Shown: positions 25,136 to 28,195 of the stretch, piece after piece
Position numbering within the stretch: the stretch's first letter is position 1
Layout: each line of letters opens with the position of its first letter
Source of the DNA: a virus
IMG/VR virus record: IMGVR_UViG_3300017779_000108
Span: 1 to 28,195 of that record
Strand: one strand, 5' to 3'
Length of the DNA stretch: 28,195 nt
Translations under genes and position numbers: made by a program
Notes under the pieces: model-generated
Told to the model about the DNA's origin: nothing
The model's input: the letters and a program-made list of their open reading frames with translations, nothing else
Database searches by the model: none

Positions 25136-25576
25136 ATGGCATATAGTGGGAGATATAAAGTAAAGAATCCGGACAAGTATAAAGGTAATCCAACTCAGGT
25201 TATCTTTAGATCCTTGTGGGAAAGACAGGTTTTTCGTTGGTGTGACGAAAATCCAAGTGTTCTTCGGTGGTCGAGCGAAGAGATTATCGTCCCATATCGA
25301 TGCAAGACCGATAGAAAACGTCATAGATACTTTCCGGATGTTTACATCAAGACAAAAGATAAGGAGTATTTGATTGAAATCAAACCGAAAAAGGAGACTG
25401 TTCCACCCCGAGATCGTTCTCGAAAAACAAAACGTTACCTTAACGAAGTAATGACCTACATCAAGAACACCTCGAAGTGGGAGGCTGCTGAAGAATACTG
25501 TGCAGATCGAGGCCTGATCTTTCAAATCTGGACAGAAGAAACTTTGAAGGGAATGGGGATTAAATTGTTGACGTAA
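25136..25576 (+). CDS. 4: Head completion protein gp4 (gp50), 146 aa
   Basis: The length and motifs match T4 gp4 (150 aa). Residues about 16-36 (KGNPTQVIFRSLWERQVFRW), then PSVLRWSSEEIIVPYRC, then RYFPDVYI and YLIEIKPKKET recall the TnsA/Holliday-resolvase type nuclease fold, with acidic candidates E29, D68 and E81 followed by K83. gp4 is needed to finish heads so that tails can join; its nuclease activity in this lineage is inferred, not shown. It is the first rightward gene, divergent from gp48-like, with a GATAAATA box 26 bases upstream. Its stop lies just before the exact late box of the next gene. Confidence 0.9.
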   Translation: MAYSGRYKVKNPDKYKGNPTQVIFRSLWERQVFRWCDENPSVLRWSSEEIIVPYRCKTDRKRHRYFPDVYIKTKDKEYLIEIKPKKETVPPRDRSRKTKRYLNEVMTYIKNTSKWEAAEEYCADRGLIFQIWTEETLKGMGIKLLT

Positions 25577-25592: not shown

Positions 25593-26183
25593 ATGGCCGT
25601 ATCTTTTTTTGATAAATTACAAGCAGATGCTTTTCGTTCAGGTGTTCAACCTCGAACCGAAGAGTCGTTGAAGTGGTTTAAAAAGCGTCTTAGTAGCATC
25701 AAAACAATTAGTCGAAACAAGATACTGAAAGACGAGAATTTGATCAAGGTGAACAAACCGCTCACTGGCCGGATGTTTATGTACTTCTACGATCCAAAGA
25801 CCAAGGAAACTCTACCATACTACGATAAGTTTCCTCTTATCATTATGGTTGATAGAGCACCAAAAGGTTTCTATGGGTTGAATCTTCACTATCTCGATCC
25901 AAAGAGAAGGGCAATATTCTTTGATAGGTTGACGGATTACATGACCAACAAGAAATACAATCGAAGTACAAAATTTCGTCTATCCTATGGTCTTTTGTCT
26001 GGAGCTAGTAAACTCAAAGAGTTCGAACCCTGTTTCAAAAGATATCTTACCTCAAACATTAAATCAAGAGTATCAGAAGTTCCGGCGACCGAATGGGAGG
26101 CCGCACTCTTCATGCCGACCGACCAGTTTGTAAAAAACAAGAGGCAAACTGTCTGGAGAAAATCACGTAAACTTATAGCATAA
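25593..26183 (+). CDS. Conserved T4-like phage protein, 196 aa (possibly DNA end protector)
   Basis: The middle has GRMFMYFYDPKTKETLPYYD, FPLIIMVDRAPKGFYGLNLH and YLDPKRRAIFFDRL. The C-terminal half has FRLSYGLLSGASKLKEFEPC, FKRYLTSNIKSRVSEVPATE and WEAALFMPTDQF. I recall this conserved set from T4-like marine and other large myophages. The protein is basic, which fits DNA or virion contact. T4 has gene 2 (DNA end protector) beside gene 4, so a gp2-like role is a reasonable guess from position only. It follows gp4 behind its own late promoter, and its stop overlaps the start of the next gene by one base. Presence as a real gene is certain; function is uncertain. Confidence 0.75.
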   Translation: MAVSFFDKLQADAFRSGVQPRTEESLKWFKKRLSSIKTISRNKILKDENLIKVNKPLTGRMFMYFYDPKTKETLPYYDKFPLIIMVDRAPKGFYGLNLHYLDPKRRAIFFDRLTDYMTNKKYNRSTKFRLSYGLLSGASKLKEFEPCFKRYLTSNIKSRVSEVPATEWEAALFMPTDQFVKNKRQTVWRKSRKLIA

Positions 26184-26872
26184 TGTCTTTAGTTAAAAAA
26201 ATTCAAGGTACAATAAGTCCAACAACGATAGATGACTTCAAGTCAGTCATCAGTCGAAGAAGCGGATTGGCTCCGTCGAATCGGTTCGCGATCTTCATGG
26301 CTCCTCCATCGCAAACTCTCTTGAACTTAGACTTGCAGAATGTAGCAAGCAATCTTTTGAGTGGCAACTTTGCCCCATCACAACTTGTAAACGATCCAAG
26401 AGATATTTCACTTCTTTGTGAGAGTTGTTCTTTGCCCGGCCGTCAGATACAAACACTCGATCATCAGAACATGAACTATCGGCAATCTATAAAAGAACCA
26501 CAAGGATACTTCAATGAAGATGTGAGTTTTGTTTTTCACTTGACTAATGACTACCACATGAAAAAACTTTTTGATCGTTGGACAAGTTTGGTTATAAATC
26601 CTGAAACATATCAGGTTGCCTACAGAAAAGAATATGTAACTGACGTAACAATACAACAGTTAAATCAACAGAACGTTCCGATATATGGTGTTAAATTGAA
26701 AAACGCCTTTCCAGTAACGGTAAATACAATTGAGTTGAATAACGCATCAGCTGAAACCCAAAAATTGAATGTCACAATGACATACGAAGATTATGAAACC
26801 GAAGGATCACTTGCCTCCTCCATCGGTGGTGTTAAAAATGTAATTGGAGGCGTGCTTAATAGATTAATATAG
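26183..26872 (+). CDS. 54: Tail-tube fold protein, baseplate tube initiator (gp54-like), 229 aa
   Basis: The sequence NRFAIFMAPPSQ, SLLCESCSLPGRQIQTLDHQ, EPQGYFNEDVSFVFHLTNDY, HMKKLFDRWTSLVINPETY and FPVTVNTIELNNASAETQKL with MTYEDYE follows the plan of gp19/gp54-type tube proteins, which stack hexameric rings on the hub. In this lineage the gene next to gp26 is usually taken as the tube initiator gp54, and the major tube gp19 is normally beside the sheath gene, not here. T4 gp54 is longer (320 aa), so a divergent tube-like hub ring is the alternative. The start overlaps the preceding stop (TAATG). The tube-fold call is firmer than the gp54 name. Confidence 0.68.
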   Translation: MSLVKKIQGTISPTTIDDFKSVISRRSGLAPSNRFAIFMAPPSQTLLNLDLQNVASNLLSGNFAPSQLVNDPRDISLLCESCSLPGRQIQTLDHQNMNYRQSIKEPQGYFNEDVSFVFHLTNDYHMKKLFDRWTSLVINPETYQVAYRKEYVTDVTIQQLNQQNVPIYGVKLKNAFPVTVNTIELNNASAETQKLNVTMTYEDYETEGSLASSIGGVKNVIGGVLNRLI

Positions 26873-26875
26873 ATT

Positions 26876-27565
26876 ATGCCATTACCAGTATTAGAAGCGC
26901 CGAAGTACAACCTAGTTGTACCTTCGACTAAAAAGAAATTGCAGTATCGTCCTTTCCTCGTGAAGGAAGAGAAGATACTTATGATTGCACAAGAATCAGA
27001 TGATGCTTCTCAAATAGAATCGTCAATCAAAGAAATAATAAAAGCATGTACGTTTGGAAAAATAGACGTAGACTCTTTATTCACTTATGATTTGGAATAT
27101 ATTCTTCTGAAATTAAGAGAAAAGAGTGTAGGAGAAACTAGTAATTTTTCTTTGGCGTGTGAGAAGTGTGGGGCTAGCAATAAAGTGACTGTCAATCTTC
27201 AGGATGTTTCTGTTGATTTTCCAGAAAATGTTCCGGACAACACTATAGAATTAGCTGAGGGTGTTGGTATAACTCTTTCTCCTGTTTCAATCAAGAGATT
27301 AGGAAAACTGGATCAGAATAACATCAACTCAGTCATATCTACAGTAATTGAAACAATATATGATGAAAAAAGTGTATATTCTGTTGATAGTGTCAGTAGA
27401 GAGGAACTAGATGCTTTCATCGATTCTTTTACTCATAAAAATTTAGAAGAAATTCAGAATTTCGTTAAAAATCAACCAACACTAAAACATACAGTTACTT
27501 TTAAATGTTCGGAGTGTGGACATGAGAACACATATACATTAGAGGGAATTCAATCTTTTTTCTAA
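26876..27565 (+). CDS. 26: Baseplate hub / tail assembly chaperone gp26-like, 229 aa
   Basis: The N-terminus (PVLEAPKYNLVVPSTKKKLQ, then YRPFLVKEEKILMIAQES) is the signature of the T4 gp26 family (T4_baseplate). Two CxxC pairs, CEKC at residues 95-98 and CSEC at 211-214, could together bind one zinc ion. The length is near T4 gp26 (208 aa). The gene ends with codons TCT TTT TTC TAA; the last bases form a T TTT TTC slippery heptamer. The -1 frame continues open into the next small ORF, predicting a second product of 290 residues. With a tape-measure-like gene directly after, this matches the chaperone position of lambda G. gp26 in T4 is an assembly protein for the hub, which is consistent. It starts 3 bases after the previous stop. 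Confidence 0.88.
   Translation: MPLPVLEAPKYNLVVPSTKKKLQYRPFLVKEEKILMIAQESDDASQIESSIKEIIKACTFGKIDVDSLFTYDLEYILLKLREKSVGETSNFSLACEKCGASNKVTVNLQDVSVDFPENVPDNTIELAEGVGITLSPVSIKRLGKLDQNNINSVISTVIETIYDEKSVYSVDSVSREELDAFIDSFTHKNLEEIQNFVKNQPTLKHTVTFKCSECGHENTYTLEGIQSFF
27556..27562 (+). promoter_or_regulatory. Putative -1 ribosomal frameshift slippery site T TTT TTC
   Basis: The heptamer fits X XXY YYZ exactly in the gp26 frame: codons TTT (27557-27559) and TTC (27560-27562), preceded by T27556. After a one-base back-slip both tRNAs re-pair on TTT TTT, and reading resumes at CTA (27562). The gp26 stop TAA (27563-27565) follows immediately. The -1 frame has no stop until 27745. Confidence 0.75.
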
Positions 27566-27681
27566 TTTGCCTTTCTCACGATTCACTCGCCAATCACTAT
27601 CAAACTAATTTTTCCATGATGCATCATCATAATTATAGTTTATCAGAACTTGACAACATGATTCCGTGGGAAAGGCAAATT
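27564..27681 (+). promoter_or_regulatory. Long-range RNA stem downstream of the slippery site
   Basis: Bases 27564-27580 (AATTTGCCTTTCTCACG) pair with 27665-27681 (CGTGGGAAAGGCAAATT) over 17 bp with one G-U wobble and no bulge, enclosing a loop of 84 bases. The GC-containing core starts at 27569, six bases past the slippery heptamer, the usual spacer for frameshift stimulators. The 3' arm also encodes the conserved-looking PWERQI. A pseudoknot with the loop is possible but not resolved here. Confidence 0.7.
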
Positions 27682-27747
27682 TATACTTCTATGTTATTGG
27701 ATTGGGTGAAAGAAGAAAATGAAAGGATAAAGAAAAACAATGGCTGA
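27616..27747 (+). CDS. Small tail assembly chaperone ORF, probably made as a -1 frameshift extension of gp26
   Basis: From the first ATG the ORF is 43 residues: MMHHHNYSLSELDNMIPWER, then QIYTSMLLDWVKEENERI and KKNNG. The motif YSLSEL..M.PWER.IY..ML....KEENE resembles small proteins seen after gp26-type genes in other myophages and the T part of GT chaperones (from memory). No Shine-Dalgarno precedes its tandem ATGs. Instead the same frame is open back to 27562, inside the gp26 slippery site, adding 18 residues (LICLSHDSLANHYQTNFS) before the Met. The fusion would therefore add 61 residues to gp26. It overlaps the next gene by 8 bases. Independent initiation at 27616 is the alternative. Confidence 0.72.
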   Translation: MMHHHNYSLSELDNMIPWERQIYTSMLLDWVKEENERIKKNNG

Positions 27748-28195
27748 AGAACCATCATTCTTAGGAATTATAGATAGAATTAGAGCAGAGGGAGACTTGG
27801 ATCGAAATAAAGGATCCAATTCCATCAAGTCTTTGAAGGGAGAGGTTTCTGTTGGCAATGAGAAAATTGTAGACGAACTAGATGATATCTCTATTTCAGC
27901 AAGGGTGCAGACAAATAGTCTTCATGATTTAAGGGATGCCATAGTCGGTAACGACCTTGCAAAAGCAGAAAAAGATAGAGAACAAAAAGATCTCCTTCAA
28001 GACATCGCTGATGGTACTAACAAACCCAACAAAGAAATTCAGAAGAGTGAAGAGAAAAAAAGTAAAGGGTTCTTTGCAGGATTGCTTGGATTCTTCAGCA
28101 AATTTAAAGGATTTTTAACACCTCTTATAAAACTATTTAAGGGCCCACTGTTGAAAATTTTTGGAGGTTTGGGGACAGTATTCAAAAGAGTTTTC
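27740..28195 (+). CDS. 29: Tape-measure-like tail length protein (gp29-like), 5' part only
   Basis: The frame is open from ATG 27740 to the window edge (152 codons, no stop). The N-terminus (MAEEPSFLGIIDRIRAEGDL, then RNKGSNSIKSLKG) matches the opening of tail-length proteins in marine T4-like phages as I recall them. It is followed by a charged helical stretch and then a hydrophobic amphipathic segment (GFFAGLLGFFSKFKGFLTPL, IKLFKGPLLKIFGGLG), as expected for tape measures that line the tube and may enter the membrane. Direct placement after chaperone genes is the rule in tailed phages. The start is preceded by AAAGGA 12 bases upstream, inside the chaperone ORF. Without the C-terminus, the gp29 name is provisional. 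Confidence 0.72.
   Translation, partial: MAEEPSFLGIIDRIRAEGDLDRNKGSNSIKSLKGEVSVGNEKIVDELDDISISARVQTNSLHDLRDAIVGNDLAKAEKDREQKDLLQDIADGTNKPNKEIQKSEEKKSKGFFAGLLGFFSKFKGFLTPLIKLFKGPLLKIFGGLGTVFKRVF

Follow-up and report, generated by a model that had tools for sequence, protein, structure and literature searches.

A probable ribosomal -1 frameshift joining gp26 to a gp51-like extension in the tail assembly chaperone locus of an uncultured T4-like marine phage

We analysed a stretch of 28,195 nucleotides from an uncultured marine relative of phage T4 (IMG/VR record IMGVR_UViG_3300017779_000108), which we will henceforth refer to as the window. Within it, a homologue of gene 26 of T4 is flanked by genes for a tail tube protein and a tape measure protein. 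The features of this locus are as follows.

26183..26872, + strand: tail tube protein gene, upstream of gp26 (phrog_45, 7e-32; PF06841 at 2e-5, below its cut-off)
26876..27565, + strand: gp26 homologue, the candidate short chaperone form (TAC-N, G-like), 229 aa (PF12322 in a match to the whole protein, residues 9-229, E 7e-60; phrog_150, 3e-66)
27556..27562, + strand: putative slippery heptamer T TTT TTC, phased with gp26 (from the sequence and from relatives)
27563..27565, + strand: zero-frame stop TAA of gp26, abutting the heptamer (from the sequence and from the stops of relatives)
27563..27747, + strand: -1 frame extension (TAC-C, T-like), giving a predicted gp26 fusion of 290 aa (frame open in all relatives)
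27564..27580, + strand: 5' arm of a predicted long-range RNA stem, with a conserved core at 27569-27580 (from fold, pairing and covariation)
27616..27747, + strand: 43-codon ORF under its expected annotation (gp51-like 'baseplate hub assembly catalyst')
27665..27681, + strand: 3' arm of this stem, spanning the PWERQI codons, with its core at 27665-27676 (from fold, pairing and covariation)
27740..28195, + strand: start of the tape measure gene, which is cut by the window end (its full-length counterpart on contig L003 matches PHROGs)

At its 3' end gp26 reads CAA TCT TTT TTC TAA, and past the slip site the -1 frame translates as FF followed by LICLSHDSLANHYQTNFSMMHHHNYSLSELDNMIPWERQIYTSMLLDWVKEENERIKKNNG, ending at a TGA at 27745-27747. 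The portion of this peptide that lies between the gp26 stop and the annotated start of the 43-codon ORF (henceforth the gap) is LICLSHDSLANHYQTNF. The ORF itself matches phrog_634 (1e-17) as well as the C-terminus of phrog_150, and no Shine-Dalgarno precedes it (upstream sequence ...CAAACTAATTTTTCC). A preliminary description of this DNA, made from its letters alone, had placed T TTT TTC in the gp26 frame at 27556-27562, directly against the stop, had read the -1 frame as open to the TGA at 27745 and had found the small ORF to lack a Shine-Dalgarno; we verified all three in the window, and the sizes of 229 aa and 290 aa fit.

The window alone cannot carry the claim of a frameshift, since TTTTTTY sites are not enriched in it but rarer than chance (20 versus 34 expected from shuffling), and we thus rejected any significance drawn from the window by itself. 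Only one other ORF end in the window (ORFs of at least 60 aa) combined a T-run heptamer with a long open -1 frame, and it was discarded as belonging to an antisense ORF running into a real gene. Inspecting the sequence 5' of the slip site by eye, we found no conserved Shine-Dalgarno-like stimulator: the window has GAGGG there, which is absent from most relatives.

The claim holds because heptamer, -1 peptide and relative frame are all preserved at the junctions of relatives. Scans of IMG/VR, together with a phage collection, yielded 166 usable junctions, or 69 after removal of near-duplicates. In 166 of 166 junctions the small ORF lay in the -1 frame and gp26 carried an in-frame T TTT TTN heptamer, although the script that assembled this set itself selects for a T-run heptamer. 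Unselected junction lists, in which the gp26 stop was located first and the junction read afterwards, therefore matter too, and these had the same layout at all loci long enough to judge. The zero-frame stop fell 0-2 codons past the heptamer in all relatives, and the distance from the heptamer to PWER was exactly 36 codons in 164 of the 166 junctions. After dereplication the heptamer was T TTT TTY in 68 of 69 cases and T TTT TTG in the remaining one. No relative with the small ORF in another frame was found among the junctions examined; the alignment of related phages that the preliminary description had proposed thus returned heptamer, frame relation and small ORF conserved in every one of them. 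The layout is found in phages of Methylophilales, Pelagibacter, Synechococcus, Prochlorococcus, Sinorhizobium, Rhizobium, Vibrio and Aeromonas and in one of Desulfovibrio. Loci from outside the marine group that share it are those of Sinorhizobium phiN3, Rhizobium RL38J1, Vibrio V05 and D525, and Aeromonas CC2, as well as, among loci inspected singly, those of Pelagibacter HTVC008M, Prochlorococcus P-SSM4, Synechococcus S-CRM01 and the Desulfovibrio phage.

A frame change at such a site could also arise in the transcript, by slippage of the polymerase on a run of six to seven T, given that T7 runs can slip in transcription. However, 60 of the 69 dereplicated junctions have a run of only six T followed by C, and the phasing of the tract is X XXY YYZ without exception, with structured RNA after it, as expected for a ribosomal -1 shift. 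We consider that polymerase slippage has only a very slim chance of being the explanation.

The pattern of codon changes indicates that the apparently intergenic gap after gp26 is protein-coding, and in the -1 frame only. Specifically, among 67 relatives, 64% of single-codon changes in the gap were synonymous in the -1 frame (versus 20% expected), compared with about 15% in the other two frames, while stop codons numbered 0 in the -1 frame versus 35 and 126 in the others. This bears on how the small ORF is usually described: most deposited genomes, including those of S-PM2, Melnitz, HTVC008M and P-SSM4 among others, annotate it as a separate gene (gp51) with its own start codon, for which the window offers an ATG at 27616. 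Such a gene would begin only after a peptide that is itself conserved and coding-constrained, and its ATG is not conserved, as 7 of the 67 relatives have no ATG in the region at all and only 5 of the 67 have any start with a Shine-Dalgarno-like motif; moreover, T4 gp51 carries the same stretch fused to a gp26-like domain. On these counts of start codons and Shine-Dalgarno motifs we rejected a separate start for the small ORF, which we judge very unlikely. Termination-reinitiation, in which ribosomes ending gp26 restart on the small ORF, would be helped by the closeness of the stop to candidate starts, but the candidate start in the window is about 50 nt past the stop and is not conserved among relatives, and the conserved gap peptide would stay untranslated; we judge it very unlikely. 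The 43-codon ORF is most likely just the end of the gp26 fusion. In all, 591 phage records encode the extension, and at the frameshift-type loci that we opened it was annotated as a separate gene or left unannotated, never joined to gp26. The frameshift reading would thus mean that many deposited genomes annotate one protein as two. In the RefSeq record of Synechococcus phage ACG-2014b (L187:1501-1680), the -1 extension is wholly unannotated, with frame, heptamer and peptide conserved.

The relationship to T4 is informative, given that T4 gp26 and T4 gp51 both belong to PF12322. In profile comparisons, the columns of T4-type gp51 up to 200 were matched by marine gp26, and columns 200-249, its C-terminal 50 aa, by the -1 extension (E 4e-8). 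Because gp26 plus the small ORF aligns with gp51 from end to end, gp51 is the natural in-frame form of the fusion and, as a paralogue of gp26 with the same tail, allows T4 to encode both forms as two genes. T4 gp51 (249 aa) resembles the fusion in that this C-terminal extension comes after a gp26-like domain, but it is a separate full-length gene on the strand opposite to gene 26, for which a frameshift is unneeded. T4 gp26 keeps the FF as GAG TTC TTT GAG, with no slippery heptamer and with a closed -1 frame. Sequence comparison thus suggests that the two forms come from two paralogous genes (26 and 51) in T4 and from one gene in the marine phages, in which case the locus contrasts two routes to the same protein pair, gene duplication and frameshift. 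Sullivan et al. (PMC3037559) described cyanophage gp51 as having about 20% of its normal length, with the first ~200 residues missing; these residues would be accounted for if gp26 supplies them through the frameshift.

Downstream of the slip site we predict a long-range RNA stem of 12-17 bp, which would pair the LSH codons with the PWER codons and enclose a loop of 84 nt. Its arms in the window, 5'-AATTTGCCTTTCTCACG (27564-27580) and 5'-CGTGGGAAAGGCAAATT (27665-27681), are able to pair, and RNAalifold recovered the same helix unprompted. Across the 30 LSH-bearing relatives, the 12-bp core was 91.7% paired, compared with 33-59% in slid registers, and both-sided changes in the core were found in 25 cells versus 9.7 in shuffles. 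One could object, as regards the stem part only, that conservation of the LSHDS and PWER peptides creates the pairing as a by-product without a role of its own: synonymous randomisation of the core showed that the encoded amino acids suffice for about 70% pairing in this register. The maximum reached by this randomisation was nevertheless 76%, well short of the observed value, none of 500 within-column synonymous codon swaps attained the observed pairing, and compensatory changes from UA to CG occurred at paired third codon positions in 7 relatives. We therefore regard the by-product explanation as rather unlikely. The downstream RNA stems are putative stimulators of slippage and make control of the product ratio directly testable.

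Other lineages have other elements in this place. Phages of the S-PM2 group have a local hairpin over the FYN/YYRTN codons in place of the long-range stem, and those of the MAH group an 11-bp hairpin over the MAH/ESYY codons, whose sequences vary too little for covariation to be assessed. Local folding energy relative to synonymous shuffles had a mean z of -3.3 in the S-PM2 and MAH groups, and -0.5 in a control inside gp26. We lean slightly towards a scenario in which a single slip site, fixed across marine T4-like viruses, has been combined with no fewer than three downstream RNA elements that differ between lineages, the stimulatory RNA being replaced while the protein output stays the same. 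At a further locus (L073:4382-4513) the slippery site and the LSH peptide are intact, but PWELEI stands instead of PWERQI, the long-range stem is lost and no obvious structure takes its place; the stem is therefore not universal. The RNA stem after the slip site may be a new part of this system; in the literature searched, with Vladimirov et al. 2022 covered by title and citation, we found no description of a covarying long-range stem or of its replacement by other hairpins in related lineages.

The gene that follows is consistent with a tail assembly locus. The tape measure gene starts at 27740, overlapping the end of the 43-codon ORF, and its full version lies on a contig whose gp26 is 100% identical to that of the window (L003:4865-6424). 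The 519-aa protein encoded there matches several tail length tape measure profiles (best phrog_58, 5e-11), which bears out the earlier claim that a tape-measure-like gene directly follows the small ORF.

Structure comparison pointed in the same direction for the N-terminal domain of gp26. When Foldseek candidates from the PDB were realigned to the AlphaFold2 model of gp26 (pLDDT 89.9) over residues ~1-85, HK97 gp13 (2ob9) came top (Z 7.3, 83 residues, 3.8 A), followed by 3fgx (Z 7.3) and YqbN 3klu (Z 6.9), both of which we take to be chaperone-type proteins; the fourth row dropped to 4.8. Given that a Z of about 7 is moderate, we read the fold match as support rather than proof that the gp26 N-domain has a TAC-N fold. 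Foldseek alone, run with the gp26 model against the PDB, returned no significant match, chaperones being ranked first only after realignment, and a search of the gp26 profile against the sequences of solved structures gave nothing meaningful. The comparison of AlphaFold models with chaperones that the preliminary description had suggested thus favoured the gp26 N-domain, whose best matches were tail assembly chaperones at moderate Z, but not the T4-type gp51 model, which did not bring up chaperones in either PDB search.

The tape measure protein of lambda is a binding partner of both gpG and gpGT, and the T part of the latter binds the subunit of the tail tube (PMC5009743). For T4, gp26 and gp51 already appear in a review as chaperones of hub assembly (PMC3004832). 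The suggestion that the fusion would recast gp26 as a tail chaperone is accordingly upheld as regards a chaperone pair, but is no novelty for T4 gp26 itself.

Considering the heptamer, its phase, the coding of the -1 frame, the colinearity with gp51 and the RNA covariation, all read from sequence, we hold with high confidence that gp26 and the small ORF make up one tail assembly chaperone locus, in which a stem-aided -1 slip at T TTT TTC would yield forms of 229 and 290 aa. From these data we infer the slippage and its level: most ribosomes would terminate after gp26 and release the 229-aa short form, while a minority, aided by the RNA stem, would slip back by one base on T TTT TTC and produce the C-terminally extended form of 290 aa. 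Homology, position and fold suggest a chaperone role for the locus. By analogy with lambda G/GT, both forms would coat the product of the neighbouring tape measure gene, and the C-terminal extension would recruit tail tube subunits. The G/GT-like gp26 fusion proposed in the preliminary description is thus supported by the conservation of heptamer, phase and spacing, by the coding constraint in the gap, by the end-to-end homology with gp51, by the chaperone-like model of the gp26 N-domain and by the adjacent tape measure gene.

As with lambda gpG/gpGT, a single gene that precedes the tape measure gene would give short and -1-extended forms, with the slip site near its 3' end; the lambda proteins, however, are of another sequence family, their slip site differs from T TTT TTC, and in the window virus an RNA stem is predicted downstream. 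For T4-like phages, the Vladimirov abstract is said to report frameshifting in several groups, whereas the group of T4 itself has genes 26 and 51 as separate genes. According to a 2016 review (PMC5009743), G-T frameshifting is conserved widely, T4 being the exception. Judging by its title, the later study of Vladimirov, Gautam and Davidson 2022 (Virology 566:9-15) established which proteins are the tail assembly chaperones in T4-like phages, and PMC12846349 cites it for -1 frameshift signals of the polyT kind in the TAC-N genes of such phages. Title and citation together show that a lambda G/GT-type pair in T4-like phages was already known, and the earlier remark that such a frameshift had not been described for T4-type gp26 no longer stands. 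To the extent that these sources convey, those chaperones share the PF12322 family, the chaperone assignment and the polyT -1 signals with our locus; the window virus, however, is an uncultured marine relative, and T4 itself uses two separate genes. Chaperone frameshifting in Vandenendeviridae and Andersonviridae (PMC12846349) is similar in its polyT -1 motif, in the separate annotation of the extension and in its position upstream of the tape measure gene, but concerns other phage families and the motif GTTTTT.

Several loci depart from the arrangement in the window. Distant gp26-like genes in Kuttervirus 3HA11 (L091:2938-3741) and Vibrio phage K357 (L085:2983-3723) are followed by an open -1 frame with ..MPWHL, and their junctions, which lack the T6 heptamer, read GAA ATT TTC ATT TAA and TCA CTT TTC AAG TAA, respectively; these may represent this locus with another slip site. 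In Melnitz (L001:4911-5240) and Pelagibacter phage HTVC008M (L184:1711-2043), an extra ORF of about 110 residues, absent in the window, lies between the chaperone extension and the tape measure gene. The S-PM2 gene directly after the chaperone locus (L002:4886-8389) has ADP-ribosyltransferase-like and phage tail lysozyme domains and differs from the short tape measure gene of the window. Elsewhere in the window, the T4 gp4-type head closure gene (25136-25576) has a Pfam match to the TnsA-like endonuclease N-terminal domain (2e-20).
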